A DNA stretch of 64,000 nucleotides from Demequina rhizosphaerae (GTDB lineage: Bacteria; Actinomycetota; Actinomycetes; Actinomycetales; Demequinaceae): assembly GCF_000971255.1 (NCBI RefSeq), contig NZ_BBMC01000011.1, forward strand, positions 1 to 64,000. The letters are read 5' to 3'. The notes under the pieces were generated by a model. It was not told where the DNA came from, searched no databases, and worked only from the letters and a program-made list of their open reading frames with translations. Below, piece after piece: positions 3,804 to 59,193 of this stretch. A program made the position numbers and the translations under genes. How positions within the stretch are numbered: the stretch's first letter is position 1; each line of letters opens with the position of its first letter.

Positions 3804-3824
3804 CGTCCCACGGTAGCGGGACGG

Positions 3825-7280: not shown

Positions 7281-7296
7281 CCCGCGCATCGTCCGT

Positions 7297-9044: not shown

Positions 9045-9649
9045 AGCCGGACCTCGTGGGCCGGGCAGAGGCGCTCGCGGCGGACGGCCGCGCGATCGTC
9101 GGGATCGCGGGCATCCCGGGCGCGGGCAAGTCGACGCTGGCCCGCGAGCTCGCCGCCGGGCTCCTCGCCGCCGGCACCTCGGCCGCCTACCTGCCGATGG
9201 ACGGCTTCCACCTGCCCGCGACGGAGCTCGTGCGGCGCGGCCTCGCCGACCGCAAGGGCGCACCCGACACCTTCGACGTCGACGCCTTCGTCGCGCTGCT
9301 GAGGCGCGTCCGTGGCGCCCGGGAGGACGTTCCCGCGCCCGACTACGACCGCGACCTCCACGACGTCGTGCCCGGCCGCCTCGTCGTCCCGGCGGGTGCC
9401 CGCATCGTCGTGACGGAGGGGAACTACCTCGGGCTCGGCGGCGCGTGGGAGGCGGTCCGTCCCGCGCTCGACGCGCTGTGGTTCCTCGACGTCCCGTGGG
9501 ACGTCGCGCGCGAGCGGCTGATCGAGCGCCGCGTCGCGACCGGCCGGCGGAGGGACGATGCGGTGGCGTGGGTCGACGCGGTGGACGCGGCCAACGCGCG
9601 CCTCGTCGAGAGCACGCGGGGGAGCGCGGACCTGGTCATCCCCGGCTGA
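9041..9649 (+). CDS. P-loop nucleoside/sugar kinase-like protein
   Basis: A 202-aa kinase with Walker A GIPGAGKST (residues about 26-34) and a YLPMDGFHLP segment like that of uridine kinase, pantothenate kinase and YggC/FrcK-type proteins. TEGNYLGL is a further hallmark of this subgroup. The phosphorylated substrate cannot be told from sequence. The GTG start overlaps the upstream TGA. It carries one copy of the dispersed 12-mer (9552-9563) inside the coding region. Confidence 0.75.
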   Translation: MKPDLVGRAEALAADGRAIVGIAGIPGAGKSTLARELAAGLLAAGTSAAYLPMDGFHLPATELVRRGLADRKGAPDTFDVDAFVALLRRVRGAREDVPAPDYDRDLHDVVPGRLVVPAGARIVVTEGNYLGLGGAWEAVRPALDALWFLDVPWDVARERLIERRVATGRRRDDAVAWVDAVDAANARLVESTRGSADLVIPG

Positions 9650-14839: not shown

Positions 14840-14865
14840 CCCCTCCGCGCCCCTGACACTCCGAA

Positions 14866-19805: not shown

Positions 19806-20141
19806 TCACCGCACCGGCTTCGGCGGCAGCGTCGACACGTAGGCGAGAGCCTGGTCGACCAGCCCGTCGAGGCCGGGGCCCGCGAGCGGCAGCGCGACGT
19901 ACTCGCGCATCGTCCGCCCGGCCGGCGCGAAGGGCTCCGCGTCGTCCCGGGCGCGGGCCGCCTCGAGGTCCGCCGCGGCCAGCTTGAACGTGGCGCGGTC
20001 ACCGTACAGCGCCATGAACATGTTCCCGTGGACGAAGGCGGCCAGCTGCCCGAACATCGGGCGCACCTCCACGCCCGGCGCGTCGGGCACGAGCGCCCGG
20101 AACGCGGCGCGGTGGGCCTCGGTGGGTCGCGGCATCTCCAT
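19806..20141 (-). CDS. TfoX N-terminal domain protein
   Basis: A 111-aa protein consisting of the TfoX/Sxy N-terminal domain (VRPMFGQLAAFVHGNMFMAL near residues 26-45). In gamma-proteobacteria the full-length Sxy/TfoX activates competence; single-domain actinobacterial versions have no established role. It is convergent with the MDR pair. One copy of the dispersed motif lies in its coding region (19906-19915) and another just upstream (20197-20208). Confidence 0.8.
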   Translation of the reverse strand: MEMPRPTEAHRAAFRALVPDAPGVEVRPMFGQLAAFVHGNMFMALYGDRATFKLAAADLEAARARDDAEPFAPAGRTMREYVALPLAGPGLDGLVDQALAYVSTLPPKPVR

Positions 20142-20225
20142 GGCACGATGCTCGCGCAACCTCCGCGCGGCCGCGACCCGGGCGCGTGGCCGGGTCCCGC
20201 ATCGTCCCGCCCTACGCTTGACGCC

Positions 20226-21167
20226 ATGACGACGATCGGCGAGATGGGGGAGGACGCGCTCATCGCGGCCTTCGCCCCGCGGCTTCCCGTGACCGACTCC
20301 GAGATCCTGGGCCCCGGCGACGACGCGGCGGTGCTCGCGGTCGACGGCGACCTCGTGGTGTCCTCGGACATCCTCATGGAGGACCGCCACTTCCGCATGG
20401 ACTGGTCCAGCCCCGAGGACGTGGGCTGGCGCGCCGCGATGCAGAACCTCGCCGACATCGACGCGATGGGCGCCGTCCCCACCGCGCTCCAGATCACGCT
20501 CGCCGCGCCGCCGTCGCTCGACGCCGACTGGGTGATGCGCTTCGCGGACGGGCTGCGCGAGGCGTGCGAGCCGCACGGCGTCGGCGTGATCGGCGGGGAC
20601 CTCTCCGGCGCGCGCGAGGTCTCGGTGTGCGTCACCGTGCTGGGGGAGACCCACGGCACCGAGCCCGTGACGCGGGACGATGCGGCGCCCGGCCAGGTCG
20701 TGGCGGTGTCCGCGCCGCTCGGGGCGGCCGCGGCGGGCTACGTGCAGCTCACCGAGGGACGACGGATCGACGAGGAGACGATCGGGCTGTTCCTGCGGCC
20801 GCGTCCGCGCATCGGCGCGGGCCTCGAGGCCGCGCTGCACGGCGCGACCGCGCTCATGGACATCTCGGACGGCCTGCTGCGGGACGCGGCCCGGATCGCG
20901 CGGCGCTCCGAGGTGGGGATCGCGATCCGATCCGAGGACGTGCCGGTGCACGAGGGCGCGCGCTTCGCGGCGCTCGAGCTGCAGATCGACCCGCGGCCGT
21001 GGGCGCTCACCGGCGGCGAGGACCACCACATGCTCGCGGTGTTCCCGAGCGAGGGCGCGGTGCCGGCCGGCTGGACCGTCATCGGCGAGACCACCGACGC
21101 GTTCGCCGGCGTGCGGGTCGACGGCGAGGTGCCGGACGCGTTCGGCTGGGACCACTTCGGGGGCTGA
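20226..21167 (+). CDS. thiL: Thiamine-monophosphate kinase
   Basis: ThiL phosphorylates thiamine monophosphate to the cofactor thiamine diphosphate. The 313-aa protein shows the usual N-terminal GPGDDAAVLAV (residues about 29-39), the metal site NLADIDAMGAVP (residues about 75-86), GGDLSGA, and ISDGLLRDAARIA. A TACGCT box (20213-20218) 7 nt before the ATG indicates a leaderless mRNA. In many actinobacteria thiL follows ddl and DUF3515 directly; here about 5 kb of accessory genes separates them. Confidence 0.95.
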   Translation: MTTIGEMGEDALIAAFAPRLPVTDSEILGPGDDAAVLAVDGDLVVSSDILMEDRHFRMDWSSPEDVGWRAAMQNLADIDAMGAVPTALQITLAAPPSLDADWVMRFADGLREACEPHGVGVIGGDLSGAREVSVCVTVLGETHGTEPVTRDDAAPGQVVAVSAPLGAAAAGYVQLTEGRRIDEETIGLFLRPRPRIGAGLEAALHGATALMDISDGLLRDAARIARRSEVGIAIRSEDVPVHEGARFAALELQIDPRPWALTGGEDHHMLAVFPSEGAVPAGWTVIGETTDAFAGVRVDGEVPDAFGWDHFGG

Positions 21168-21242
21168 GGCGTCGGCCTCGCCCGCCGCTCCGGCGCGAGC
21201 CGGGCGGCGCGGAGGCGCCCGCCGCATCGTCCGGGCATACGA

Positions 21243-23251: not shown

Positions 23252-25476
23252 CCGGCCGCCTCGAGGAGCCGTTGACGAAGGTGCTGGGCGCCCGCACGGC
23301 GGGATCGCTGGGCAAGCTCGGGCTCGAGACCGTCGGCGACCTCCTGCGCCACTACCCGCGCCGCTACGGCGCGCCCGGCGAGTTCACGCCGCTCGCGGAG
23401 CTGCGGCAGGGCGAGCACGTCACCGTGATGGCCGAGGTCCGCACCGCGACCGTCCGGCAGATGCGCTCGCGCGGCGGCGCGATGCTCGAGGCGGTCGTCA
23501 CCGACGGCCGCGACAGCCTCCAGCTCATGTTCTTCGCCAAGCGTGCCGGCGTGCTGCGCATGCACGAGGACAAGCTGCGCCCGGGAAGGCGCGGGCTGTT
23601 CACCGGCACGGTGGGCGACTACCGCGGGCGCCGCCAGCTCACCCACCCCGACTACCTCATCGTCGGAGTCGACGCGGCCGACGAGGACGAGGCCCTCGCC
23701 GAGGCGTCCCGTCCGATCCCGCTCTATCCGGCGGCGGCCGCGGTGCCCACGTGGCGCATCGGCCGCGCCGTGCGGGCCGTCCTCGACCCGCTCGTCGAGG
23801 CGGACGTGCCCGACCCCATCCCGGAGGAGATCCGCGCGCGCCGGGGCCTGCCGACGCTGCTCGAGGCGCTGCGGCTCGTGCACGTCCCCGAGTCCGACGC
23901 AGACCACCGGCGCGGGCGCGCGCGCCTGCGCTTCGAGGAGGCGCTCGTCCTCCAGACGGCGCTCGCGAGGCGCCGCGCGGACCACGACGCGCTGTCGGCG
24001 GTCCCGCGCCCGGCGCGCCCCGGCGGTCTCGTGGAGGCGCTCGACGAGCGGCTCCCGTACGACCTCACCGCCGGCCAGGTGGCGGTGGGCGAGTCGATCG
24101 CCGCCGACCTCGCGCGGGACACCCCGATGCTGCGGTTGCTCCAGGGCGACGTCGGCGCGGGCAAGACGGTGGTCGCGCTGCGCGCCATGCTCCAGGTGGT
24201 GGACGCCGGGGGACAGGCCGCCCTGCTCGCGCCCACCGAGGTGCTCGCGGCCCAGCACGCGCGGTCGCTGCGCGCGCTGCTCGGCCCGCTCGCCGACGGC
24301 GGCATGCTCACCGCCGCCGACGACGCCACCCGCGTCACGCTGCTCACCGGTTCGCAGGGCTCGCGCGAGCGCCGCGCCGCGCTCGCGGAGGCCGCCTCGG
24401 GGGCCGCCGGCATCGTGGTCGGCACGCACGCGCTGCTGAGCGACACGGTGCAGTTCGCGGACCTCGGCCTGGTCGTGGTCGACGAGCAGCACCGGTTCGG
24501 CGTCGAGCAGCGCGACGCGCTGCGGGCCCGCGGCGAGCGCGTGCCGCACACCCTCGTCATGACCGCGACGCCGATCCCGCGCACGGTCGCCATGACCGTG
24601 TTCGGCGACCTCGAGACCTCGGTGCTGAGCGACCGGCCCGCCGGCCGCCAGGAGACGGTCACACATCTCGTCCCGGCCGGCAACGCCTCGTGGGTCCAGC
24701 GCGTGTGGTCCCGCGTGCGCGAGGAGGTCGACAACGGCGGCCGCGCATACGTCGTCTGCCCGCGCATCGACGGCGACACCGAGGAGGAGGCCGAGGACGT
24801 CCCGCTCGACGCGCTCGAGGAGGACGATGCGGCGGCCGGGGGCGACGCATCGTCCCGCCCGCCGCTCGCGGCGGTCCTCGAGGTGGCCGAGGCGCTGCGG
24901 ACCACCCCCGCGCTCGCCGGTCTCGACGTCGGCGTGATGCACGGGCGGCTGTCCTCCGACGAGAAGGACACGGCGATGCGGCGCTTCGCGTCGGGCGAGG
25001 CGCCCGTCCTCGTCGCGACCACGGTGATCGAGGTCGGCGTCGACGTGCCCGAGGCGACCGCGATGGTCGTCCTCGACGCCCAGCACTTCGGCATCTCCCA
25101 GCTGCATCAGCTGCGCGGCCGCGTCGGGCGAGGCGACCGCGCGAGCCTGTGCCTGCTGGTGTCGCACGCCGAGGACGGCACCGTCGCGCACGAGCGCCTC
25201 GCCGCGCTCGCGGCCACCGCGGACGGCTTCGAGCTCGCCGAGAAGGACCTCGAGCTGCGGCGCGAGGGCGACGTGCTGGGCGCGGCCCAGTCCGGCGGCC
25301 GCAACTCGCTGCGCCTGCTGCGCGTGGTGCGCGACGCCGGGCTGATCGAGGAGGCGCGGGCCGAGGCGGCGGCGCTGGTCGCCGACGACCCCTCGCTGGG
25401 CGCGCACCCCGCCCTCGCGGATACGATCGCCGACATGCTGGACGACGAGCGCGAGGACTTCCTATCGCGATCGTGA
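23248..25476 (+). CDS. recG: ATP-dependent DNA helicase RecG
   Basis: A 742-aa helicase that remodels stalled forks and branched DNA. An N-terminal wedge/OB domain is followed by helicase motifs: Walker A GDVGAGKT near residue 304, motif II DEQH near residue 412, TATPIPRT, and QLRGRVGRG near residue 625. An acidic, Ala-rich insert near residues 507-545 is non-conserved and holds two copies of the dispersed motif head to head (24822-24832 and 24846-24856). It overlaps the genes on both sides, forming an operon from YloV to the SLOG gene. Confidence 0.95.
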   Translation: MTGRLEEPLTKVLGARTAGSLGKLGLETVGDLLRHYPRRYGAPGEFTPLAELRQGEHVTVMAEVRTATVRQMRSRGGAMLEAVVTDGRDSLQLMFFAKRAGVLRMHEDKLRPGRRGLFTGTVGDYRGRRQLTHPDYLIVGVDAADEDEALAEASRPIPLYPAAAAVPTWRIGRAVRAVLDPLVEADVPDPIPEEIRARRGLPTLLEALRLVHVPESDADHRRGRARLRFEEALVLQTALARRRADHDALSAVPRPARPGGLVEALDERLPYDLTAGQVAVGESIAADLARDTPMLRLLQGDVGAGKTVVALRAMLQVVDAGGQAALLAPTEVLAAQHARSLRALLGPLADGGMLTAADDATRVTLLTGSQGSRERRAALAEAASGAAGIVVGTHALLSDTVQFADLGLVVVDEQHRFGVEQRDALRARGERVPHTLVMTATPIPRTVAMTVFGDLETSVLSDRPAGRQETVTHLVPAGNASWVQRVWSRVREEVDNGGRAYVVCPRIDGDTEEEAEDVPLDALEEDDAAAGGDASSRPPLAAVLEVAEALRTTPALAGLDVGVMHGRLSSDEKDTAMRRFASGEAPVLVATTVIEVGVDVPEATAMVVLDAQHFGISQLHQLRGRVGRGDRASLCLLVSHAEDGTVAHERLAALAATADGFELAEKDLELRREGDVLGAAQSGGRNSLRLLRVVRDAGLIEEARAEAAALVADDPSLGAHPALADTIADMLDDEREDFLSRS

Positions 25477-30377: not shown

Positions 30378-31307
30378 TTGCCTGAGCTTCCCGAGGTCGA
30401 GACCGTCCGTCTCGGCCTCTCCTCGCTCGTCACCGGCGCCCGCATCGTGCGCGCGGACGTCCTCCGCGACTCGTGCGTCCGCCTCCTCCCCGGCGGCCCG
30501 GCCGAGTTCGCCGCCGAGGTCCAGGGCCTCGCGCTGTCGCGCTGGGTGAGGCGCGGCAAGTTCCTGTGGGCCGAGCTCGCGCCCGAGCCCGGGGACGATG
30601 CGCCCCTCCTCGCGCTGTCCGCGCACCTGGGCATGTCCGGCCAGTTCCGCGTCCACAGCGACGTCCCCGAGCCGCACCGCCACTGCCGCGCGCGGCTCAC
30701 GCTCGCCGGCCCCGATCTCACCCTCGACTTCCTCGACCAGCGCACGTTCGGCTACCTGCACGTCGAGCCGCTCGTCCCCACGCCCGACGGCGGGCCCGGG
30801 GGACAGGGCACCCCGCTGCCGCTCCTGCCGGCCTCGGTCGCGCACATCGGCCGCGACGCGCTCGATCCCGCGCTGGACGATGCGGCGGCCGCGCGGGCGC
30901 TGCGGCGCGGCAGCCGCGGCATCAAGCAGGTGCTGCTCGACCAGACGGTCGTCAGCGGCCTGGGCAACATCTACGCGGACGAGGCGCTGTGGCTCGCTCG
31001 CGTCCACCCCGAGCGTCCCGCGCACGCCGTCACCGCATCGTCCGCGCGCACGCTGCTGGACGCCGCCCGGGAGGTGATGGGCCGCGCCCTCGCCCAGGGC
31101 GGCACGTCCTTCGACGCGCTGTACGTCAACGTCAACGGCGAGTCCGGCTACTTCTCGCGCTCGCTCGAGGCGTATGGCCGCGCTGGCGAGCCGTGCACCC
31201 GCTGCGGCTCGCCGCTGCGCCGGGAGACGATCGGCGGGCGCTCGACCCACTGGTGCCCCCGCTGCCAGCGCCGGTGGAGCGCGCGTCGCAAGGGTCCCGG
31301 GTCCTAG
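30378..31307 (+). CDS. mutM: Formamidopyrimidine-DNA glycosylase
   Basis: A 309-aa base-excision repair enzyme removing oxidised purines. The protein begins PELPEVETVR, in which Pro becomes the catalytic N-terminal residue after Met removal; this fixes an unusual TTG start at 30378. The H2TH region (SGLGNIYADEALW near residue 193) and a C-terminal zinc finger (CxxC...CxxC, residues about 274-298) are intact. Three copies of the dispersed 12-mer or its variants lie in the coding region. Confidence 0.95.
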   Translation: MPELPEVETVRLGLSSLVTGARIVRADVLRDSCVRLLPGGPAEFAAEVQGLALSRWVRRGKFLWAELAPEPGDDAPLLALSAHLGMSGQFRVHSDVPEPHRHCRARLTLAGPDLTLDFLDQRTFGYLHVEPLVPTPDGGPGGQGTPLPLLPASVAHIGRDALDPALDDAAAARALRRGSRGIKQVLLDQTVVSGLGNIYADEALWLARVHPERPAHAVTASSARTLLDAAREVMGRALAQGGTSFDALYVNVNGESGYFSRSLEAYGRAGEPCTRCGSPLRRETIGGRSTHWCPRCQRRWSARRKGPGS

Positions 31308-33581: not shown

Positions 33582-35220
33582 CGAGGCTCACCACCGAGTC
33601 CGCAAGGTCGAGGAGCGAGAGGTCGTGGGTGACGAGCACCACCGTACGGCCCTGCGCCCGCATCCGTGTCACGAACGCCCGCAGCGCGTCGGCTCCGGCG
33701 TCGTCGAGATGCTCCGCGGGCTCGTCCACGAGCGCCACCGGCGCGGGCGCCAGACCGGCCCGCGCGAGCAGCAGCCGGCGCCTCTCGCCGCCGGACACCG
33801 ACCGCCCGCCCGCGCCCAGCTCGGTCGCCAGGCCCGCGGGCAGACCGCGCACCCAGCCGTCGAGCCCGACGAGCGTGAGCGCGTCCCACGCCTCGTCCTC
33901 GGTGACGTCGCCGCGCGCGACGCGGAGGTTCTCGAGCACGGTGGTCCCGAACACGTGCGCGTCCTCGGCGGTCATCGCGACCACCGTGCCCGTGTCGGCG
34001 GGCGAGGACGGCCTTCCGTCGAGCGTGACGGCGCCCGCGGCGGGCGGCAGCGCGCCCGCGATCGTGGTGAGCAGCGTGGTCTTGCCCACCCCCGAGCGGC
34101 CGACGACCGCGAGCACCTGGCCCGGGTCGACCCGGGCGCTCACGGGCGGGGTGGGCTCCATGCCCGGCCACGCGACGCTGAGGGCGTCGAGCGCGAGGGA
34201 CGATGCGGCGGGCACCTCGCGCGGCCCGGTCGCCTCGTCGGCGGGCGTCTCGTCGACCATCTCCGCGAGGCGTCGCGCGGCGGCGGCCGAGCGGAAGTAC
34301 TGCATGATCGCGGCCGGCACCGCCCCGACGGCCTCGAAGGCGGCGAGGGGGAGCAGCGCGACCACGGCGGCGCTCGGGCCGTCCAGGTCGCCCCGCTGCA
34401 CCGCGAGGACGCCGAGGGCGACCAGCGCGACGAGCGCGAGGCCCGAGAACAGCGCCTGGAAGCCGGCGGCCCAGGCCGCGGGCCGGGCGGCGAGCTCGTG
34501 CGCGTGCTCGGCGTCGCGGTCGGCGCCGCGCAGCGCCGCGGCGGCGTCGTCGAGCGTGCCCCACACGCGGTGCTCGGTCGCGCCGTCCATCGCGGACAGC
34601 GCGGCCGCCGACACCTCGGCGTGCGCGCGTGCCCCGGCCACCGCCGCGATGCGCGCGGAGCGGGCCGTGAGGATCGCCGGCACCACGCCCGCGAGCACGA
34701 GGCACACGGCCAGCGCGAGGCCCGCGAGCGGCAGCAGGAAGGCGACGATGGCGACCGAGATCGCGGACACGGTCACGGCGACCCCGAGCGGGATGATCGC
34801 GCGCACCACGGCGTCGCCGATCGCGTCGAGGTCGGCGCCCATGCGCGCGACGATGTCGCCGCGACGCAGCCCCAGCACGGTGCGGGCGCCCGAGCGCGCG
34901 AGCCGGTCGTACGCGCGCTCCCGCAGCGTCACGACGCCCCGGAGCGCCGCATCGTGCGACGCGAGCCGCTCGAGGTACCGGAACACGCCGCGAGAGATGC
35001 CGAAGAAGCGCACCACGGTCGCGGCCAGGGCGACGTCGGCGGGCGACGGCATCTGCGCGGCCTTGGCGATGAGCCACGCCGCGACCGCGGCGAGGCCGAC
35101 CGCGGAGCCGAGGGCCATGGTGCCCGCGAGGATCGCCCGCACGATCGCCCACCGGCGCACGCCGGTGTCGCGGATCGCCGCGCGCAGCAGGGCGAGGTCG
35201 GAGGCGTCCCGGCGGCTCAT
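33574..35220 (-). CDS. cydC: Thiol reductant ABC exporter subunit CydC
   Basis: A 548-aa half-transporter with six membrane helices (residues about 15-310) and an ATPase domain. Walker A is GRSGVGKTT near residue 368, the signature is SVSGGERRR, and Walker B is VALVDEPAEHLD. With CydD it exports cysteine/glutathione needed to assemble cytochrome bd. ATG at 35220 overlaps cydD by 4 nt. Two copies of the dispersed motif or near-variants lie inside. Confidence 0.9.
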   Translation of the reverse strand: MSRRDASDLALLRAAIRDTGVRRWAIVRAILAGTMALGSAVGLAAVAAWLIAKAAQMPSPADVALAATVVRFFGISRGVFRYLERLASHDAALRGVVTLRERAYDRLARSGARTVLGLRRGDIVARMGADLDAIGDAVVRAIIPLGVAVTVSAISVAIVAFLLPLAGLALAVCLVLAGVVPAILTARSARIAAVAGARAHAEVSAAALSAMDGATEHRVWGTLDDAAAALRGADRDAEHAHELAARPAAWAAGFQALFSGLALVALVALGVLAVQRGDLDGPSAAVVALLPLAAFEAVGAVPAAIMQYFRSAAAARRLAEMVDETPADEATGPREVPAASSLALDALSVAWPGMEPTPPVSARVDPGQVLAVVGRSGVGKTTLLTTIAGALPPAAGAVTLDGRPSSPADTGTVVAMTAEDAHVFGTTVLENLRVARGDVTEDEAWDALTLVGLDGWVRGLPAGLATELGAGGRSVSGGERRRLLLARAGLAPAPVALVDEPAEHLDDAGADALRAFVTRMRAQGRTVVLVTHDLSLLDLADSVVSLDD

Positions 35221-36809
35221 GGCGCCACCTCCGCGCGGGCGGCGGTGACCTCGACGACCGCGTCGGCGGCCTCGAGGACCTCGGCCTCGTGGGTCGCGAC
35301 GACGACGGTCGCGCCCGCGTCGGCGAGCGCCCGCATGCGTGCGATCACCTCGGCGCGGGAGGCGCGGTCGAGGTGCGAGGTGGGCTCGTCGAGCAGGACG
35401 AGCGGACGTCCCGAGTCGAACGCCCGGTCGAGCGCGCGCCGCTGACGCTGGCCCAGCGACAGGGTGCGGCCGGCGGGGCCCAGGTCGGGGCGCTGCGGCA
35501 CCCACGCCACCTGGGCGAGCCACGAGGCCTCGTCGACCGCCGCATCGTCCGTCAGCACGGGGTCGCCGCCCACGGCGACGGTGCCCGCGTCGGGCGCGAG
35601 CAGGCCGGTGAGCGCGAGCAGCGCGGTGGACTTGCCCTCGCCGTTGGGGCCGCGCAGCGCCGTGACGGCGCCGGGAGCCGCGACGAGGCCGAGCGCGGCG
35701 GGGGCGAGGCGCGTGCCGTCGGGGGTGGCGACGGCGAGGCCGGTCACCTCGATCGCGCGGCCGCGCACGTCAGGGGCGGCGCCCAGCGACCGGCGGGCAC
35801 GTGCCGGGTCCTTCTCGTCGAGCAGCGTGAACGCGGCATCGGCGGCCGCGAGGCCGTCCGCGGAGGCGTGGAAGTGGGTGCCGACGTTGCGCAGCGGCAG
35901 GTAGACCTCGGGCGCCAGGACGAGCACCGCGAGGGCTGTCTCGATGCCGATCTCGCCGGCGATGAGCCGGAAGCCCATGGTGACGGCCACGATCGCGACG
36001 GCCAGCGTCGTGAGGAGCTCGAGCACCATGCCCGAGAGGAACGCGACCCGCAGCGAGCCCATCGTGGCGCGGCGCTGCGCGTCGCCGAGCTCGCGCACGC
36101 GGGCCGCGGGGCCCCGCTCGCGGCCCAGGGCCTTGAGCGTGGGCAGGCCCTCGATGAGGTCGAGGGTGCGGGCGCCCAGGCGCTGCATCGCCTCGAGGTG
36201 CTTGGCGGAGCGCTCCTGCGTCACCAGCCCGACGAGGATCATGAACATCGGCACGAGGGGCAGCGTGACGAGCACGATGACGGCGGACAGCCAGTCGAGG
36301 CCCAGCACCACGACGAGCATCACCGGCGTGACGGTGACGGCGAGGGCGAGCTGGGGGAGGTAGCGCACGAAGTACGGCAGCAGGTCGTCGAGCCCGCGGG
36401 TGACGAGGGTGGCGACCTCCGCGGTGCGGCCGCCGGCGGACCAGCGCGGGCCGCGGGTGGCGACGTGGTCGACGACCATCTCGCGCAGCTGCGAGATCAC
36501 GCGGACGCCGGCGCGGTGCGCGAGGCGCTCCTGGAGCCACGCGACGGCGGTGCGGGCGGCCACGACGGCCGCGAGGACGGTGAGGCCCGTCGCGAGGGTG
36601 CGGGCACCCTCGGGGACGATGCGGCCCCACCAGTGGAGGCCGTCGTCGGCGAGGGGGACGGGGGAGAGGACCGGCGCGAGGAGGCGGGCGATGACCAGGG
36701 CCTGCACGAGGATGAGCAGTGCCGTGACAAAGCCCAGGCCCGCCGTCACGAGGATGTGGCGGCGGGCCGGGCCGATCCTGCGGACGAGCCGCGGATCGAG
36801 AGGCTTCAT
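35217..36809 (-). CDS. cydD: Thiol reductant ABC exporter subunit CydD
   Basis: A 530-aa half-transporter with membrane part at residues about 15-310 and a C-terminal ATPase. Walker A is GPNGEGKST and the signature reads LSLGQRQRR instead of LSGGQ, so the second glycine is replaced. Walker B LVLLDEPTSHLD is normal. The deviation may make one ATP site weak, as seen in other asymmetric ABC dimers. ATG at 36809, 8 nt after cydB. Confidence 0.9.
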   Translation of the reverse strand: MKPLDPRLVRRIGPARRHILVTAGLGFVTALLILVQALVIARLLAPVLSPVPLADDGLHWWGRIVPEGARTLATGLTVLAAVVAARTAVAWLQERLAHRAGVRVISQLREMVVDHVATRGPRWSAGGRTAEVATLVTRGLDDLLPYFVRYLPQLALAVTVTPVMLVVVLGLDWLSAVIVLVTLPLVPMFMILVGLVTQERSAKHLEAMQRLGARTLDLIEGLPTLKALGRERGPAARVRELGDAQRRATMGSLRVAFLSGMVLELLTTLAVAIVAVTMGFRLIAGEIGIETALAVLVLAPEVYLPLRNVGTHFHASADGLAAADAAFTLLDEKDPARARRSLGAAPDVRGRAIEVTGLAVATPDGTRLAPAALGLVAAPGAVTALRGPNGEGKSTALLALTGLLAPDAGTVAVGGDPVLTDDAAVDEASWLAQVAWVPQRPDLGPAGRTLSLGQRQRRALDRAFDSGRPLVLLDEPTSHLDRASRAEVIARMRALADAGATVVVATHEAEVLEAADAVVEVTAARAEVAP

Positions 36810-42490: not shown

Positions 42491-42634
42491 GTCCCGCATC
42501 GTCCACCCGGGACGGGGAGCACGGGTGCCGCACCGACGCACCGGGTAGAATCACGTCGGTGCCCCGTCCCGTCGGCATGCCACGGTCATTCCGTGCGCAG
42601 CGCCGGGAGGGCAGGGGTGCGCGACACTCCCGGT

Positions 42635-43413: not shown

Positions 43414-43483
43414 TAGGCTGGGGACGATGCGGGGCTCACCCCCGCGAGCATCGTCGCCCCGCCGCATCCTCCAGGAGGCACCC

Positions 43484-45044: not shown

Positions 45045-46160
45045 GTGAGCGAGGCGCGCGCGATCGTCGCCCAGGCACGGCGCATCGTCGTCAAGGTCGG
45101 GTCGTCGTCGCTCACCGGTGCCGATGGCCAGCTCGACGAGGCGCGCCTCGGCGCGCTCGTCGACGTGCTCGGCGAGGCCCGGACCTCGGGCCGCGAGGTC
45201 CTGCTGGTGACGTCCGGCTCGATCGCGGCGGGCATCGGCCCGCTCGGGCTGGTGGCCCGCCCCACCAACCTCGAGCTGCAGCAGGCCGCCGCGTCGGTGG
45301 GCCAGGGCAAGCTGGTGCACGCCTACACCGTCGCTTTCGCGCGGTACGGCCTCACGGTGGGCCAGGTGCTGCTCACCGCGGACGACATGGTCCGCCGCGC
45401 CCACTACGGCAACGCGCGCCGCGCGCTCGAGTCGCTGCTCGCGCTCGGCGTGGTGCCGATCATCAACGAGAACGACACGGTCGCCACCGACGAGATCCGC
45501 TTCGGCGACAACGATCGCCTCGCGGCGCTCGTCGCGACCGCGGTCCGCGCGGACGCGCTCGTGCTGCTCACGGACGTCGACGCGCTCTACACGGCCGCCC
45601 CGGACACGCCGGGAGCGCGCCGCATCGCCGACGTGCACGGACCCGACGACCTCCACGGCATCGACATCTCTCGCCGCGGCTCGGCCGTGGGCACCGGCGG
45701 CATGATCACCAAGATCGAGGCCGCGTCCCTCGCCACCAACTCCGGCGTCCACGTGGTCCTCGCGTGCGCGGACGATGCGGCGCGGGCCGTCGCGGGCGAG
45801 GACGTGGGCACGCTATTCCGGCCCACGGGCAAGCCCGAGACCACGCGCCTGCAGTGGCTCGCCGACGCGGCCAAGACCCGCGGCGGCATCGTGCTCGACG
45901 ACGGCGCGGTGCGCGCGCTGCGCGGCCGCCAGGCGTCGCTGCTCGCGGCCGGCGTGGTGGAGATCCGCGGAGACTTCGAGGCGGGGGAGCCCGTCGACCT
46001 CCTCGCGCGCGACGGCTCACTCGTCGCGCGCGGCTTCGCCGGCTTCTCCTCCGAGGAGGCCGACCGCATGAAGGGCCTGTCGACCGAGGCACTCGGCGAG
46101 GTGCTGGGCGAGGCCTTCGCGCGCGAGCTCATCCACATCGACCACCTGGTCGTCCTCTAG
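45045..46160 (+). CDS. proB: Glutamate 5-kinase
   Basis: A 371-aa enzyme phosphorylating glutamate in proline synthesis. The amino-acid kinase domain (residues 1-260) has VVKVGSSSLTG, the INENDTVATDE loop and GTGGMITKIEAA. The C-terminal PUA domain covers residues about 280-365 (RGGIVLDDGAVRALRG). GTG start with GGGAGG 4 nt upstream. proA lies further on, separated by a P-type ATPase gene. Confidence 0.95.
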   Translation: MSEARAIVAQARRIVVKVGSSSLTGADGQLDEARLGALVDVLGEARTSGREVLLVTSGSIAAGIGPLGLVARPTNLELQQAAASVGQGKLVHAYTVAFARYGLTVGQVLLTADDMVRRAHYGNARRALESLLALGVVPIINENDTVATDEIRFGDNDRLAALVATAVRADALVLLTDVDALYTAAPDTPGARRIADVHGPDDLHGIDISRRGSAVGTGGMITKIEAASLATNSGVHVVLACADDAARAVAGEDVGTLFRPTGKPETTRLQWLADAAKTRGGIVLDDGAVRALRGRQASLLAAGVVEIRGDFEAGEPVDLLARDGSLVARGFAGFSSEEADRMKGLSTEALGEVLGEAFARELIHIDHLVVL

Positions 46161-46183: not shown

Positions 46184-46282
46184 CCGACAGCCGGCACGGA
46201 TCGCGCGACGACACGCCGACCTGAGCACCGCATCGTCCCTCCGTCGCCGGTGTGTCGCGATCGATTCCGTGCGCGCTGTCGG
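46184..46282. repeat. Intergenic inverted repeat, family copy 2
   Basis: Long imperfect arms (46184-46217 with about 46249-46282) start with CCGACAG and end with CTGTCGG. The loop carries one exact copy of the dispersed 12-mer (46228-46239). The right arm closely matches segments at 14917-14950 and 57758-57795. Confidence 0.6.
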
Positions 46283-46355: not shown

Positions 46356-49103
46356 ATGAGCACGGAATCGGCAGAGCGGGCGGCGACCGCGTGGTGGTCC
46401 AAGGAGCCGGCGGACGCCGCCGCGGAGCTGGGGGTGGGGCTCGACGGCCTCACCGCGGTCGAGGCGAGCGAGCGCTACTCGCGCTACGGGCCCAACGAGC
46501 TGACCGCCGCGCAGGCCGCGACGCTGTGGCAGCTCGCGCTGCGCCAGCTCGCGGACCCCATGAACCTCATGCTCATCGCGGTCACCGCGATCTCCGCCGC
46601 GATCGGCGAGGTGTCGACGGCGATCATGGTGGGCCTGCTCGTCGTCTTCAACGTGTGGTCCGGCGCGAGCCAGGAGCGCAAGGCCCAGGCGAGCGTGGAC
46701 GCGCTCGCGACGATGCAGGTGCCGCAGGTCCGCGTCCGCCGCGACGGCGGTGTCGTCGCGATCCCGGCACCCGAGCTCGTGCCCGGGGACATCATCGAGC
46801 TCGAGGCGGGCGACATCGTGCCCGCCGACGCGCGCATCGTCCGCGCGACCACGCTGGAGACGCAGGAGTCGGCGCTCACCGGCGAGAGCGCGCCGATCGA
46901 GAAGGGCGCGGCCGCGCTGCCGGATCCCGCGACCGCGCTCGGCGACCGCACCTCGATGCTGTTCCAGAACACGTCCGTGACGCGCGGCACCGCGACGGCG
47001 CTCGTGGTCGCCACCGGCATGGCGACGGAGATGGGCGCGATCGCGACGATGCTGTCGACCGTCGAGCGCGTCCAGTCGCCGCTCCAGCGCGAGCTCTCCG
47101 CGCTCACCCGCATCATCGGCGCGGTGGCGTGGGGCGCGGTCGTGCTCATCGTCGGCCTCGGCATCACGCGCGGCCAGTCGTTCAGCGAGCTGATGTTCCT
47201 CGGCACCGCGGTCGCGATCTCCGCGATCCCCACCGGTCTGCCGACGTTCGTCCAGGGCATGCTGTCGTGGGGCGCCTCCCGGCTCGCCGAGGCGAAGGCG
47301 GTCGTGGCCTCGCTCAACGACGTCGAGACGCTCGGCGCGACGAGCGCGATCTGCTCGGACAAGACCGGCACGCTCACGATGAACCAGATGATGGCGCGCA
47401 GCGTGTGGGTGGGCGGCGAGACGTTCACCGTCGACGGCTCCGGGTACTCGTTCGAGGGCCGGGTGCGCCGCACGCAGGGCGACGAGATCCCGCTCGGCGC
47501 CCCCATCGCGTACGCGCTCGCGCTGCCCAACGACGCGACCGTGAGCGCCGACGGCGTGGTCGTGGGCGACCCGACCGAGGCGGCCTTCGTGGTCCTCGCC
47601 CAGAAGCTCGGCGTCGACGTGCCGGAGGCGCAGCGCCGCTTCCCGCGCGAGGCCGAGGTGCCGTTCGACTCGGACTACAAGTTCATGGCGACGTTCCACC
47701 ACGTCGAGTGGCAGGGGGAGCGGCGGCTGGTGGGCGTCGTCAAGGGCGCCCCGGACGTGCTGCTGGCGCGCTCGTCGCGCGCGTACCTACCGACGCGGGA
47801 CACCGTGCCGGTCGCCGAGCTCGCGGATGCCGTGACTGAGGAGATCGAGTTCCGCTCGTCGCAGGGCCTGCGCACGCTTGCGCTCGCGCTGCGCGTGTAC
47901 GAGGAGGCGGAGGAGGCCGCCGTGCTCGCCGACCCGATGGCGGCGGTGAGCGAGCTCGGGTTCGTCGCGGTCGTCGGCATCGTCGACCCGCTGCGGCCCG
48001 AGGCGAAGGTCGCGGTCGACGAGGCGCACGCCGCCGGCATCGACGTGCGGATGATCACCGGCGACCACGTCGTCACGGCCGCCGCGATCGGGCGCGAGCT
48101 CGACCTGCCGGGGGAGGGGCTGTCGGGCGCCGAGTTCGCGGCCCTGAGCGACGACGAGGTCGACGCGCGGCTCGACGAGCTGTCCGTCTTCGGGCGCGTC
48201 ACCCCGCAGGACAAGCTCCGGTTGGTGCAGCGGCTCCAGGCGCGCGGCGAGGTCGTCGCCATGACCGGCGACGCGGTGAACGATGCGGCGGCGATCAAGC
48301 AGGCCGACGTCGGGGTGGCCATGGGGTCGGGCTCCGAGGTCACCAAGCAGGCCGCGAAGCTCGTGCTCACCGACGACAACTTCGCGACGCTCGTCGGTGC
48401 GGTCAAGCTCGGCCGGGTCGTCTACGCGAAGATCACGTCGTACCTCACGTTCCAGCTGTCGCAGCTCATCGCGCTGCTGATGCTCTTCGTCGTCGCGAGC
48501 CTCATCGACCTCAACGACGGCGTCGCGCTCACGCCCGTCATGGTGCTGGTGCTCAACTTCGCGGTCTCGATCTTCGCGGTGCTCGTCATCCTGTTCGAGC
48601 CCGAGCCGCCGGGGCTGATGCAGCGGCCGCCGCGCGACCCGTCGGCGGGGATCGCGTCGCCGCGCAACGTGGTGCGGTGGCTCATCTACGGCGGCGCGCT
48701 GTTCGTCGCGGCGCTCGTGCCGCTGCTGGCCGGCCAGGACGAGCTGTCGCCCGACGAGGCCTCGCAGCCGATGACGATGGCCTTCGTCATCGTCGCGCTC
48801 GGCACGCTCACCACGGGCCTGCAGCTGCGCCGCGACCCCGAGACGGGCCTCACGGCGCCCTGGGGGCGCGGGACGCGCATGCTGCTGTGGCCGCTCGCGT
48901 TCATCGTCCTCGCCACCGAGCTCGACTTCATGCACGACTGGCTGTACACGTCGTCGCTCACCGGCTGGGAGTGGCTCGCCTGCATCGGGCTCACGCTCGC
49001 GGTGATGGTGGTGGTCGAGGTCGACAAGGCGTTCCGCCGGCGCCGGCAGGAGAAGGTCGCGCCCACCGTCGCGGAGGCCGTGGCTCCCGCGCGGGGCCGC
49101 TGA
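46356..49103 (+). CDS. P2-type cation-transporting ATPase with atypical ion sites
   Basis: A 915-aa P-type ATPase. The actuator loop has LTGESAPIEKG near residue 178, the phosphorylation motif is CSDKTGTLTMN near residue 334, and the hinge reads TGDAVNDAAAIKQADVG instead of TGDGVNDAPALK. In M4 the usual PEGLP is IPTGLP. In M6 the Asp of the NLVTDGLPA motif is missing (LNFAVSIFA). Both are calcium ligands in SERCA, so calcium transport is doubtful and the substrate is open. A TAGACT box at 46324-46329 may drive it. It splits the proB-proA pair. Confidence 0.88.
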   Translation: MSTESAERAATAWWSKEPADAAAELGVGLDGLTAVEASERYSRYGPNELTAAQAATLWQLALRQLADPMNLMLIAVTAISAAIGEVSTAIMVGLLVVFNVWSGASQERKAQASVDALATMQVPQVRVRRDGGVVAIPAPELVPGDIIELEAGDIVPADARIVRATTLETQESALTGESAPIEKGAAALPDPATALGDRTSMLFQNTSVTRGTATALVVATGMATEMGAIATMLSTVERVQSPLQRELSALTRIIGAVAWGAVVLIVGLGITRGQSFSELMFLGTAVAISAIPTGLPTFVQGMLSWGASRLAEAKAVVASLNDVETLGATSAICSDKTGTLTMNQMMARSVWVGGETFTVDGSGYSFEGRVRRTQGDEIPLGAPIAYALALPNDATVSADGVVVGDPTEAAFVVLAQKLGVDVPEAQRRFPREAEVPFDSDYKFMATFHHVEWQGERRLVGVVKGAPDVLLARSSRAYLPTRDTVPVAELADAVTEEIEFRSSQGLRTLALALRVYEEAEEAAVLADPMAAVSELGFVAVVGIVDPLRPEAKVAVDEAHAAGIDVRMITGDHVVTAAAIGRELDLPGEGLSGAEFAALSDDEVDARLDELSVFGRVTPQDKLRLVQRLQARGEVVAMTGDAVNDAAAIKQADVGVAMGSGSEVTKQAAKLVLTDDNFATLVGAVKLGRVVYAKITSYLTFQLSQLIALLMLFVVASLIDLNDGVALTPVMVLVLNFAVSIFAVLVILFEPEPPGLMQRPPRDPSAGIASPRNVVRWLIYGGALFVAALVPLLAGQDELSPDEASQPMTMAFVIVALGTLTTGLQLRRDPETGLTAPWGRGTRMLLWPLAFIVLATELDFMHDWLYTSSLTGWEWLACIGLTLAVMVVVEVDKAFRRRRQEKVAPTVAEAVAPARGR

Positions 49104-50450: not shown

Positions 50451-50521
50451 CGCGGCCGGGCCGTCCCCGCATCGTCCCCAGCGGTGCCATAATCGCGGGA
50501 GACAACAGGAGGAGTCCCCCC

Positions 50522-53294: not shown

Positions 53295-53911
53295 CCCGCG
53301 TCTTCCTCGTCCGCCACGGACAGACGGACTGGAACCGCGAGGGGCGGCTCCAGGGGTCGACCGACATCCCGCTCAACGCGACGGGGCGCGCGCAGGCCCG
53401 TGCCGCCGCATCGTCCCTCTGGCCGGCCCTCGAGGGCGAGCCCGTCGTGGTGTCCTCGGCCCTCGGGCGTGCCGTGGAGACGGCACGCATCCTCGTGGGG
53501 GACCGACCCGCGTCGATCCACCAGGACGCGCGCCTGGGCGAGCGCCGCTACGGCCCCTGGGAGGGCCTGGACGCCCACGAGCGGGCGACGCGCTTCCCCG
53601 ACGACCACGCCGCGTGGAAGGCCGGCTACGAGCCCGACTTCGACGGCTACGAGACCCATGCCGAGGTCGCCGCGCGCACCACGGCCGCGGTCGACGAGTG
53701 GGTCGCGAGGGTGCCGGGCGACCTCGTGCTCGTCGCGCACGGCTCGTCGGGCCGCATGATGCTGCTCGCGCTGCTCGGGCTCCCGCTGGAGGGACGCACC
53801 CTCGGCAGCCTTCACAACGCCGCCTGGTCGCGCCTCGTGCCGTCGTCCGCCGGCGGCTGGTCGCTCGAGAGCCACAACGTGGGCGCGCCGCCCGTGGAGG
53901 TGGCGCCGTGA
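53291..53911 (+). CDS. Histidine phosphatase family protein, GpgP-like
   Basis: A 206-aa phosphoglycerate-mutase-type phosphatase. The catalytic RHGQTDWN (residues 8-15) and the second His in VAHGSSGRMMLL are intact. Right after rsfS is the place of glucosyl-3-phosphoglycerate phosphatase (GpgP) in mycobacteria, so this or the next gene may have that role. GTG start overlapping rsfS; the end overlaps its paralogue by 4 nt. Confidence 0.85.
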   Translation: MTRVFLVRHGQTDWNREGRLQGSTDIPLNATGRAQARAAASSLWPALEGEPVVVSSALGRAVETARILVGDRPASIHQDARLGERRYGPWEGLDAHERATRFPDDHAAWKAGYEPDFDGYETHAEVAARTTAAVDEWVARVPGDLVLVAHGSSGRMMLLALLGLPLEGRTLGSLHNAAWSRLVPSSAGGWSLESHNVGAPPVEVAP

Positions 53912-54734: not shown

Positions 54735-54788
54735 CCCGGGCGCCTCGCGCCGTCGCATGGGACGATGCGGCGGTACAGGAGGTGCTCC

Positions 54789-55271: not shown

Positions 55272-56828
55272 ATGACGACCACCGCACCACCGCACGCCGA
55301 CCGCATGGACCCGGCCCGCGCATCGTCCCTCGTAGCGCTCGCGCGCGGCGGTGGGGAGCCGCTCGAGGCGAGGTGCCCCTGGGACGGCTCGGTGCTCGCC
55401 GAGGTGCCCACGTCGCGACCGGCCGACGTCGCCCTAGCGGTGGACGAGGCGCGGGTCGCCCAGCGCGCCTGGGCCGCCACGCCCATCCGCGAGCGGGCGG
55501 CCGTCATGCGCCGCGTCGCGAGCCTGGTGTGGGGGCGCGCGGACGACCTCCTCGACATCGTCCAGCTCGAGTCCGGCAAGAGCCGCGTCAGCGCCTTCGA
55601 GGAGGTCGCGGACGTCGCGCTCAACGCCGCCCACTACGCGCGGCACGGCGCGCGCCTGCTGCGCGACCGGCGCCGCCCCGGCGCGCTGCCCGTCGTCACG
55701 CGGACCACCGAGCACCACCGGCCCTGCGGAGTCGTCGGCATCATCGCGCCGTGGAACTACCCGCTCACGCTCGCGGTCTCGGACGCGATGCCCGCGCTGA
55801 TCGCGGGCAACGCGGTGGTGCTCAAGCCCGACTCCCAGACGCCCCTGTCCGCGCTCGCGGGCCTCGAGCTGCTGCGCGACGCGGGCCTGCCCGCCGGCGT
55901 CATGCAGGTGGTCGTCGGCGACGGGCCGACCGTGGGCGGGGCCCTCGTCGACGCGGTCGACTTCGTGATGTTCACCGGCTCGACCGCGACCGGGAGGAAG
56001 GTCGCCGCGCGCTGCGGCGAGCGTCTGATCGGGTGCTCGATGGAGCTCGGCGGCAAGAACCCCATGCTCGTGCTGTCCGACGCGGACCCCGAGCGGGCTG
56101 CGGCCGGCGCCATCCCCGCGTGCTTCTCCAACTCGGGCCAGCTGTGCGTGTCCGTCGAGCGGATCTACGTCGCGGACGAGGTCCACGACGCTTTCGTCGA
56201 CGCGTTCGTGCGGCGCACCCGCGCGATGAGCCTGGGCGTCGGGACGGGCTGGGAGATCGACATGGCGTCGCTCGCGTCCGAGGCGCACCTCGCGACCGTG
56301 CGGGCGCACGTGGACGATGCGGTGGCGAAGGGCGCGACGGTCCTCGCCGGCGGCCGCGCACGGCCCGACCTGGGCCCGACCGTGTACGAGCCGACGATCC
56401 TCGCGGGCGTGACGGACGACATGCGCTGCGCGCGCGAGGAGACCTTCGGGCCGGTGGTGGCGGTGCATCGCGTCGCCTCGGACGACGAGGCGGTCGCGCG
56501 CGCCAACGACACCGTGTACGGGCTCAACGCCGCGGTGTGGTCCCGGCGGCGCGGCACCGCGGTCGCGGCGCGGATCGAGGCCGGCACGGTCAACGTGAAC
56601 GAGGGCTACTCGGCCGCGTGGGGGTCGCTCGGCGCGCCCATGGGCGGCTGGAAGGACTCCGGGCTGGGCCGCCGCCACGGCACCGCCGGCATCCTCAAGT
56701 ACACGCAGGCGCAGACCATCGCCGACCACCGCGGGCCCGTGATCGCGCCGTTCGACGGCATGGCGAACGACGCGTACGCGCGGGCGATGACCGCGGCGGT
56801 GCGGCTGCTCGGCCGGATCCGGCCTTAG
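55272..56828 (+). CDS. Succinic semialdehyde dehydrogenase-like aldehyde dehydrogenase
   Basis: A 518-aa NAD(P)-dependent aldehyde dehydrogenase. The cofactor motif FTGSTATGR (residues about 235-243), general-base Glu in MELGGKNP (about residue 257) and catalytic Cys in NSGQLCVSVERI (about residue 291) are intact. The overall type resembles actinobacterial GabD2 succinic semialdehyde dehydrogenases; the substrate is inferred. AGGAGG lies 6 nt upstream. An SDR follows after 9 nt, likely in one operon. Confidence 0.85.
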   Translation: MTTTAPPHADRMDPARASSLVALARGGGEPLEARCPWDGSVLAEVPTSRPADVALAVDEARVAQRAWAATPIRERAAVMRRVASLVWGRADDLLDIVQLESGKSRVSAFEEVADVALNAAHYARHGARLLRDRRRPGALPVVTRTTEHHRPCGVVGIIAPWNYPLTLAVSDAMPALIAGNAVVLKPDSQTPLSALAGLELLRDAGLPAGVMQVVVGDGPTVGGALVDAVDFVMFTGSTATGRKVAARCGERLIGCSMELGGKNPMLVLSDADPERAAAGAIPACFSNSGQLCVSVERIYVADEVHDAFVDAFVRRTRAMSLGVGTGWEIDMASLASEAHLATVRAHVDDAVAKGATVLAGGRARPDLGPTVYEPTILAGVTDDMRCAREETFGPVVAVHRVASDDEAVARANDTVYGLNAAVWSRRRGTAVAARIEAGTVNVNEGYSAAWGSLGAPMGGWKDSGLGRRHGTAGILKYTQAQTIADHRGPVIAPFDGMANDAYARAMTAAVRLLGRIRP

Positions 56829-57656: not shown

Positions 57657-57695
57657 GCGCGCGGGGCGCCGGTCCGACGTGCCGCCGGGCCCGGC

Positions 57696-57755
57696 CGCCG
57701 CATCGTCCTCCCGACCGCCGCATCGTCCCCTCGGCCGCCGCATCGTCCCCCCTGC
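57696..57755. repeat. Three 20-bp tandem units carrying the dispersed motif
   Basis: CCGCCGCATCGTCC begins at 57695, 57715 and 57735, exactly 20 bp apart, each followed by a variable pyrimidine-rich end. It is the only place where the motif is tandem. It is followed directly by the half-repeat at 57758. Confidence 0.8.
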
Positions 57756-57757
57756 CG

Positions 57758-57795
57758 CGGCGTGTCGCGGCGAGGTCCGTGCGCGCCGTCGCGGG
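57758..57795. repeat. Intergenic repeat, family copy 3 (single arm)
   Basis: CGGCGTGTCGCGGCGAGGTC and the following bases resemble the right arms of the repeats at 14917-14950 and 46249-46282. No matching left arm was found here; the motif triplet stands in its place. Confidence 0.5.
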
Positions 57796-57863: not shown

Positions 57864-58853
57864 GTGGACAAGGCCATCTCGAGGGCGCTCGGCGCGGGCG
57901 TCGTGACGCCGGTCGTGGCGACGGCTGCCGCGGTCGCGGTCGAGCTCGCGGTGATGGGCGACCTGCCCGACCCGGTCGCGACCCACTGGGGGACAGGCGG
58001 TCCCGACGGGTTCTCGGCCGCATGGACGGTGCCGCTCATGACCGCGCTCACCGCGGGCATGCTGCCGCTCATCCTCGGCACGTCGGCGCTGCTCGCCCTC
58101 CGGCGCGGCGAGCGCGGCTTCACGCTCCGCCTGCTGCCCGCGGTCGCCGCGGGGCTGTCGGTGTACCTCGGCGCGCTGCTCGCGGGGACGCTCGTCATCC
58201 AGCGCGGCCTCGAGACGGCCCAGGACGCGCCCGGCGTGGGCTCGATCATGCTCGTCGCGCTGCCCGCAGGCGCGGTGGTCGGCGTCCTGGCGTGGCTCGC
58301 GCAGCCCCGCGAGACCGCATCCGTCGCGGCGCCCTCGCCGGCGTCGCCCCTCGCGCTGCAGCCGGGAGAGCGCGCCGTGTGGCTCGGCCGCGCCGAGATG
58401 ACGCCGTGGGCGCTGGCCTTCATCGTCCTCGCCACGCTCGCCGCGTGGACCGGCGCGGCCCTCATGTGGCTCGCCGGCGACACGGTCGCGTCCGCCATCA
58501 TCACGGGCGTCGCCGTGCTGCTCACGGCGCTCGCGGCCACGTTCACCGTCGCCCACGTGCGCATCGACGCCTCGGGGCTCACCGTCACCACCGGGGTGCG
58601 GCTGGTGCGCCTGCGGGTGCCCGCCGAGGACGTGGCCTCCGTGGCCGCGATCGACGTCCACGGCCTTGCGCAGTACGGCGGCTACGGGATCCGTCAGATC
58701 CCCGGCGCGACCGCCGTGGTCCTGCGCCCGGGCCCGGCCATCGAGGTCGCGCGCCGGTCCGGGCGGAGGTTCGTGGTCACCGTGGACGATGCGCCGACCG
58801 CCGCGTCGCTGCTCGCCGCCGCGGGGGAGGCCGCCCATGCTGCTCAGGATTGA
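57864..58853 (+). CDS. DUF1648-containing membrane protein
   Basis: A 329-aa membrane protein with about six hydrophobic segments. The N-terminal part LPDPVATHWGTGGPDGFS (residues about 32-49) is the DUF1648 signature. The C-terminal soluble part (residues about 230-325) resembles a PH-like domain. Function is unknown; such genes are usually paired with a small GntR regulator, as here. GTG at 57864 has GAGGAG 8 nt upstream; a GTG at 57855 overlaps that site and was rejected. Confidence 0.78.
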   Translation: MDKAISRALGAGVVTPVVATAAAVAVELAVMGDLPDPVATHWGTGGPDGFSAAWTVPLMTALTAGMLPLILGTSALLALRRGERGFTLRLLPAVAAGLSVYLGALLAGTLVIQRGLETAQDAPGVGSIMLVALPAGAVVGVLAWLAQPRETASVAAPSPASPLALQPGERAVWLGRAEMTPWALAFIVLATLAAWTGAALMWLAGDTVASAIITGVAVLLTALAATFTVAHVRIDASGLTVTTGVRLVRLRVPAEDVASVAAIDVHGLAQYGGYGIRQIPGATAVVLRPGPAIEVARRSGRRFVVTVDDAPTAASLLAAAGEAAHAAQD

Positions 58854-59193
58854 CCCCGCCTCGAGCCAGCCGCTCTACGACCAGATCGCGGACGACGTGC
58901 GCCGGCAGGCGTCCGCCGGCACGCTCCGCGCGGGCGACCGGCTGCCGCCCGCGCGCGAGGTCGCCGAGGCGCTCGACGTCAACCTCCACACCGTCCTCAA
59001 GGCGTACCAGCTGCTGCGCGACGAGGGCCTCGTCGAGATGCGGCGCGGGCGCGGCGCCGTCGTCTCCGCGCATGCCGCGGCGCTCGCCGCGCTGCGGGAC
59101 GATGCGCTGGCCCTGGCCGCGCGCGCCCGCGAGCTGGGGGTGGGCGTCGAGGCCGTCGCCGCGCTCGTGAGGGCCGCGGCCGAGGAGTCCTGA
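58837..59193 (+). CDS. GntR-family regulator, YtrA subfamily
   Basis: A 118-aa regulator. The winged helix-turn-helix covers residues about 10-75 (GDRLPPAREVAEALDVNLHT) and the short C-terminal helix is that of the YtrA subfamily, without an effector domain. It overlaps the DUF1648 gene by 17 nt. It most likely represses the operon via the palindrome at 57823-57843. Confidence 0.85.
   Translation: MLLRIDPASSQPLYDQIADDVRRQASAGTLRAGDRLPPAREVAEALDVNLHTVLKAYQLLRDEGLVEMRRGRGAVVSAHAAALAALRDDALALAARARELGVGVEAVAALVRAAAEES

Follow-up and report, generated by a model that had tools for sequence, protein, structure and literature searches.

A short DNA word, CGCATCGTCC, recurs throughout this Demequina genome, and it probably acts as a DNA uptake sequence of which related species have their own dialects, here in an actinobacterium. 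The 3.03-Mb genome holds 1,371 copies of the 10-mer (683+688), in agreement with the original prediction that the motif is dispersed. The 11-mer CCGCATCGTCC occurs 349+341 times, compared to 0+1 for the reversed-word control. In 264 kb sampled, CGCATCGTCC was the top over-represented 10-mer, with 152 copies against 8.4 expected. Like the uptake words of Neisseriaceae (DUS) and Pasteurellaceae (USS), it falls within 9–12 nt and is enriched to hundreds to thousands of copies in its own genome. Single-mismatch forms were modestly enriched as well, most clearly the form in which G replaces T at position 8 (23 vs 8.3), which is the neighbouring dialect. Within the window, by which we mean the whole 64-kb stretch of DNA that was analysed, the 14-mer CCGCCGCATCGTCC was found 43 times when up to 2 mismatches were allowed, compared to 6.06 expected, and 0/100 shuffles reached 43. 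The exact 10-mer core is present in 35 copies, of which three lie in a tandem array described further below and the others are the following:

3799..3808, plus strand, motif core copy
7285..7294, plus strand, motif core copy
7383..7392, minus strand, motif core copy
9553..9562, minus strand, motif core copy
12845..12854, minus strand, motif core copy
13253..13262, plus strand, motif core copy
15771..15780, minus strand, motif core copy
16164..16173, plus strand, motif core copy
19906..19915, plus strand, motif core copy
20198..20207, plus strand, motif core copy
20675..20684, minus strand, motif core copy
21223..21232, plus strand, motif core copy
24822..24831, minus strand, motif core copy, inverted pair with 24846
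24846..24855, plus strand, motif core copy, inverted pair with 24822
30593..30602, minus strand, motif core copy
30875..30884, minus strand, motif core copy
31034..31043, plus strand, motif core copy
34198..34207, minus strand, motif core copy
35541..35550, plus strand, motif core copy
36614..36623, minus strand, motif core copy
42495..42504, plus strand, motif core copy
43422..43431, minus strand, motif core copy
45770..45779, minus strand, motif core copy
46229..46238, plus strand, motif core copy, between the arms of a two-armed intergenic element
46833..46842, plus strand, motif core copy
50468..50477, plus strand, motif core copy
53407..53416, plus strand, motif core copy, shared unchanged with D. 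maris, D. soli and D. iriomotensis and reading GGCATCGTCC in D. lignilytica
54760..54769, minus strand, motif core copy
55319..55328, plus strand, motif core copy
56312..56321, minus strand, motif core copy
58784..58793, minus strand, motif core copy, shared unchanged with D. maris and D. soli, reading GGCATCGTCC in D. lignilytica and D. sediminis and GGCGTCGTCG in D. iriomotensis
59097..59106, minus strand, motif core copy

The word is one of a set of species dialects that share a core, as is typical of DUS and USS. We counted words in 44 Demequina genomes and assigned dialect groups by thresholds set in this analysis. CGCATCGTCC is the dialect of 15/44 genomes (T type; 711–1,564 copies), CGCATCGGCC is the foremost word in 6/44 (G type; 667–1,203 copies), the pooled word RGCATCGKCC is foremost in 13/44 (536–1,395 copies), and 10/44 are low in all three words. 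Since the pooled word also reaches 508–523 copies in two T-type genomes (G020 and G063), the weakest members of the group of 13 (from 536 copies) are uncertain. By this grouping 34/44 genomes are rich in a GCATCGKCC-type word, to which G009 adds AGCGTCGGGC. The words enriched in relatives, namely CGCATCGGCC, A/GGCATCGGCC, GGCATCGTCC and AGCGTCGGGC, are 1–4 bases off the word of this genome. CGCATCGGCC is the top 10-mer in G016 and G014, and de novo scans returned AGCATCGGCC in G010, GGCATCGGCC in G008, G036 and G021, and GCATCGTCCC in G026, while GGCATCGTCC has 5 copies in 12.9 kb at the D. sediminis locus. AGCGTCGGGC reaches 908 copies in G009 and 254 in G012, and no other genome has more than 52; a 60-kb scan of G012 missed this word, which G012 and G009 have in common. 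Weak words were found in G003 (GCGTCGGCGT, 23 vs 4.3 in 120 kb), G035 and G062, and de novo scans of G018 (120 kb), G027 (60 kb) and G001 (40 kb) gave no clear word. When the labels were placed on a pilT-region tree of 34 genomes, 9 dialect changes were counted compared to 17.9 with shuffled labels, with 0/200 shuffles as low; dialect follows the tree yet switches.

The enrichment of CGCATCGTCC is a feature of the genus: counts were made in 297 genomes of the order, and the 274 that are not Demequina have 0–102 copies. For other families, 40 kb from each of 10 genomes was scanned de novo, a sample size at which the G016 control reached a z of just 5.2, so that words in other families could be missed. 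One genome of another family in the same order, G038 (L255-L256), carried CGGCGTCGTA 10 times compared to 0.4 expected (z 10.0), similar to the 10.1 obtained for the word of the present genome at the same sample size. The copies fall in 10 different 2-kb bins of the 40 kb, and CGGCGTCGTA is possibly a word of G038's own.

The competence machinery expected of organisms with DUS or USS is present. ComEC (PF03772) was detected in 43/44 Demequina genomes and PilT in 44/44. In this genome, a type IVa-like pilus cluster lies in one run with pilT, pilC, pilins and genes that we take, from sequence and gene order, to be pilB, pilD, pilM, pilN and pilO; comEA-comEC lies in a separate run, comEA having been checked in this genome only. 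ComEC and PilT also occur in genomes where no word was recognised, so the machinery does not co-vary with the motif. ComEC was matched in two pieces in G009, G026 and G060; the split may mean gene loss, and with it loss of competence, or a sequencing error, and those genomes still carry words. A specific extracellular receptor such as ComP is a further mark of DUS and USS, and as a candidate we considered a lone minor pilin of ~134–143 aa, encoded beside a GNAT acetyltransferase and/or metE in 17/18 places fetched. Its profile was matched at 90 bits or above in 24/34 motif-bearing and 7/10 low genomes, and a comparison with solved structures gave no match (best E 0.27). This candidate for a ComP-like receptor is acidic, and its presence does not track the motif.

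From these observations we infer that the word steers uptake, with a surface protein as its reader and biased recombination as its driver. The core CGCATCGTCC, often with CC at −4/−3, would be a short non-palindromic self-recognition word, and the type IV pilus and com machinery would prefer external DNA that carries it. Word-bearing fragments would be taken up and recombined more often, the word would accumulate in genes and gaps via point substitution, and the accumulated copies would then be retained. With many Demequina lineages each having its own dialect, gene exchange between species would be limited.

The closest known parallels are the Neisseriaceae and Pasteurellaceae, two Gram-negative proteobacterial families, which a 2025 paper gives as the only ones known with uptake words (PMC12616744). 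In the Neisseriaceae, the DUS study of Frye et al. (2013) describes eight dialects of a 10-mer at roughly 900–5,900 copies with a shared core, and inverted DUS pairs that are common at terminators (PMC3630211). The Demequina words agree with that description in being over-represented 10-mers with a shared core and variants of one to few bases, in a distribution that matches phylogeny with two dialects at times in one genome, and in occupying coding and intergenic sites, some of them overlapping dyad pairs (PMC3630211). They resemble Pasteurellaceae USS in that a short word is enriched in the genomes that own it, in the existence of dialects, and in a type IV pilus with ComEC; the word and the phylum are different, and function has been shown there whereas it is deduced in Demequina (PMC12616744). 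Micrococcus luteus is likewise actinobacterial, with natural transformation and ComEA and ComEC, but uses Flp/Tad pili, unlike Demequina with its type IVa-like pilus cluster, and the excerpt of that study mentions no uptake word (PMC6370729). Unlike Neisseriaceae DUS, the Demequina word is unrelated, belongs to Actinomycetota and has an uptake role proposed from sequence; inverted pairs are not in excess here, and counts are below those of most Neisseriaceae. Demequina is also a single-membrane bacterium, unlike Neisseriaceae. Among the papers listed from the open-access literature, preprints aside, we found no uptake or transformation data for Demequina and no report of an uptake word in Actinobacteria.

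Very abundant short words are also known from cyanobacteria, where HIP1 is a palindromic octamer that is not known to have a dialect family. By analogy, the Demequina word might be a highly iterated word with another function, such as a DNA modification mark, nucleoid organisation or a self mark in phage defence. We consider such a function unlikely, as the CGCATCGTCC core is not a palindrome, and the species dialects and the conserved ComEC and PilT fit uptake better.

The distribution of copies between strands bears on another alternative. Both strands carry the word with no replichore bias, as in DUS and USS, judging from one 200-kb run in which the origin was not placed: there we counted 56 plus and 62 minus copies, near-even across ten 20-kb bins. 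In 344 kb the strands hold 90/98 copies. Three 20-kb stretches of G034 gave 8 plus and 19 minus (p 0.05), and the whole G034 genome 603/600. A Chi-like recombination hotspot or an oriented signal (KOPS), read by RecBCD/AdnAB-type nucleases or FtsK, would also be abundant, non-palindromic and variable between species. Chi words are typically 5–8 bases long, and E. coli Chi has a strand bias of 75:25. The uneven G034 stretches would suit such a signal, and Chi words too vary between species (PMC3630211). However, no orientation skew along the replichore was seen in the 200-kb run (origin not placed), where the 56/62 split rejects 75:25 (p 2e-7) unless the origin or terminus lies mid-run, and at 10 bases the word exceeds the typical length of Chi. 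A Chi-like signal is the strongest single rival to an uptake sequence; it is disfavoured by the local strand balance, and we regard it as improbable.

The placement of copies is similar to that of DUS and USS in including coding and intergenic sites, tolerated frames and denser gaps. Genes were predicted by a home-made hexamer gene finder. The 344 kb analysed contain 188 copies, of which 129 are within predicted genes, 57 intergenic and 2 on edges, corresponding to 0.42 per kb in genes and 1.70 per kb in gaps; in G034, gaps were not denser (0.40 vs 0.44; 60 kb). The spread of copies is slightly more even than expected by chance (variance/mean of 0.86 over 68 bins, each of 5 kb), with a mean of 1.0 copy in the 4 bins with GC below 0.69 and 2.9 in the other 64. 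Intergenic copies per kb in divergent, tandem and convergent gaps were 1.55, 1.75 and 2.20 here, 0.30, 2.92 and 4.23 in G014, and 1.57, 0.38 and 3.12 in G016, the counts in the last two being small. An excess of inverted pairs at terminators, which is usual for DUS and USS without defining them, was not seen in this genome, where 3 inverted pairs at ≤60 bp compare to ~3.1 expected if copies are placed uniformly; G014 has 5 compared to 0.9. Overlapping dyad pairs at a 6-bp offset were found in G014 (2), G016 (1) and G010 (1). A terminator or hairpin role was rejected, given the lack of inverted-pair excess here and the presence of copies in divergent, tandem and convergent gaps alike.

Within genes, the word is confined largely to a few reading frames. 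Of 129 genic copies, 69 have the reading frame that gives Asp-Asp-Ala from the opposite strand, and another 36 have the Ala-Ser-Ser frame; together with Arg-Ile-Val, these frames hold 118/129. Asp-Asp-Ala is written GAC GAT GCG at 73/122 sites, though GAT makes up just 7.1% of Asp codons, and Ala-Ser-Ser is written GCA TCG TCC at 37/80 sites, though GCA makes up just 3.3% of Ala codons. The motif overrides codon usage, and the pressure is on DNA, not protein.

To follow individual copies across species we used an orthologous alignment, in which 58/187 copies could be aligned with relatives; in it, genomes later placed in group R are labelled 'low' or G, and D. lignilytica is assigned to T type because its 12.9 kb contain 6 copies. 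In T-dialect genomes, 26/37 aligned orthologous sites were exact. In G-dialect genomes, 41 aligned sites held the T word 2 times and the G word 2 times, and in the remaining genomes neither word was found at 35 aligned sites (0/35). Across five T-type genomes, motif 10-mers were identical at 25/37 sites, compared to 85/370 for flanking 10-mers. No indel was present within the motif at 102/113 aligned orthologous sites, indicating that copies arise mainly by substitution, and an insertion element was rejected on the same grounds.

This result bears on another reading, in which the word is a short repeat such as a REP, MITE or intergenic palindrome, mobile or amplified, and spreads by copying. 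A two-armed element does exist here with one motif copy between its arms, G063, G004 and G022 have more direct arrays than expected, and 11/113 aligned sites have an indel in the motif. Against this, most copies (129/188) are genic, and flanks are unconserved beyond CC at −4/−3, which is weakly favoured in this genome, G014 and G010. The longer conserved element at sites empty in relatives that characterises REP and MITE was not found. We consider the mobile-repeat reading mostly refuted, and very unlikely to account for the word.

The window also contains a triplet of motif copies:

57690..57758, plus strand, tandem array with a 20-bp unit, 3.5 copies and 87% matches (Tandem Repeats Finder)
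57699..57708, plus strand, array copy 1, motif core CGCATCGTCC; 14-mer at 57695-57708
57719..57728, plus strand, array copy 2, motif core CGCATCGTCC; 14-mer at 57715-57728
57739..57748, plus strand, array copy 3, motif core CGCATCGTCC; 14-mer at 57735-57748

The three copies had been noted in the original prediction, and the exact starts of the 14-mer CCGCCGCATCGTCC at 57695, 57715 and 57735, all on the plus strand, together with the Tandem Repeats Finder array, bear this out. Their predicted location between an SDR gene and a GntR operon was likewise correct: the array-bearing gap of 198 bp has the SDR gene (PF00106, 56838-57656 in the window) on one side and, on the other, a DUF1648 gene (PF07853) followed by a GntR gene (PF00392). 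The best matches of the DUF1648 protein are in Demequina maris (80%), D. soli (73%) and D. iriomotensis (66%), in line with the window coming from a species of Demequina (Micrococcales, Actinomycetota). In D. maris the same two genes flank a gap of 89 bp, compared to 198 bp here, which lacks the array and has 0 motif copies. Also upstream of the DUF1648-GntR pair, at 57824-57842, is an operator-like GntR-type sequence, GTTATAGTTCATCTATAAC.

The array had further been described as fused to an intergenic repeat, of which one half stands: a single arm of a two-armed palindromic intergenic element follows array copy 3 at 57762-57782, and the other arm is absent. Complete elements, with arms GTGTCGCG-N6-TCCGTGC, some of them with 1–2 mismatches, are at 14863-14941 and 46194-46272. 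A similar palindrome lies in the D. lignilytica gap (L035 ~5,800-5,920). Outside predicted genes, a 200-kb part of this genome contains 7 copies of a different, CTGTTTTAGGAATTCCTAAAACAG-like palindrome; its AGGAATTCCT core was found neither in the window and three other stretches here nor in stretches of eight relatives. The positions of the 7 copies are:

G000:C14 53469, 55057, 80107, 80190, 122767, 136530, 136635, CTGTTTTAGGAATTCCTAAAACAG-like palindrome

We examined the spacing of direct pairs across the whole genome, with expectations that assume uniform placement of motif copies. There are 22 direct pairs with a spacer of 0–30 bp between cores, compared to ~9.6 expected, and their start-to-start periods range from 14 to 39. 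A period of 20 occurs in 3/22, two of them in the triplet and one at G000:C13:76275-76304, the only other instance of the 20-bp phase in the genome. Pairs at most 1.5 bp from a helical multiple number 8/22, compared to 10/31 of the possible spacings, and helical phasing of the array was rejected. The proposal that 20-bp phasing reflects cooperative binding found no support. Short arrays of identical or near-identical units occur in other species, with periods of 15, 17, 21, 25 and 27 among the matches listed. Direct pairs are far above expectation in G063 (111 vs ~9.5) and G004 (78 vs ~5.6), and direct arrays are also above expectation in G022; plain uptake drive does not explain the pair excess in G063 and G004. 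The sisters of G063 and G004 on the pilT-region tree, G027 and G001, are both motif-low.

Slippage or local duplication, which had been put forward as the alternative, fits the array because the D. maris gap is 89 bp without a copy and arrays of other species vary in period. The triplet is best read as a tandem local duplication of one motif copy and its neighbourhood, not as a phased binding site; for a word that acts in uptake, it would be one spot where a copy and its surroundings were duplicated in tandem. That it is instead a phased cooperative site for a regulator of the DUF1648-GntR operon is hardly credible: the spacing does equal two helical turns and the array does lie upstream of the operon, but 20 bp accounts for just 3/22 spacings, and the GTTATAGTTCATCTATAAC operator persists without the array, identical in D. 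maris, D. soli, D. iriomotensis and D. sediminis and as a one-base variant in D. lignilytica.

On balance, we lean towards the view that Demequina independently evolved a multi-dialect uptake-sequence system with its own reader, the first of its kind in Actinomycetota and beyond the Neisseriaceae and Pasteurellaceae. As a third instance, unrelated to these two and found in a high-GC actinobacterium, it would mean that bacteria have repeatedly evolved self-marking of their DNA, and the origin of self-marking would become testable via sister species with different words. If this is true, the dialect switches along the Demequina tree would be natural experiments in the co-change of a DNA word and its reader and in species isolation. 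The lead in G038 suggests that the habit may extend wider in Micrococcales. Lastly, such a system would imply natural transformation in Demequina, and with it a genetic tool for the genus.
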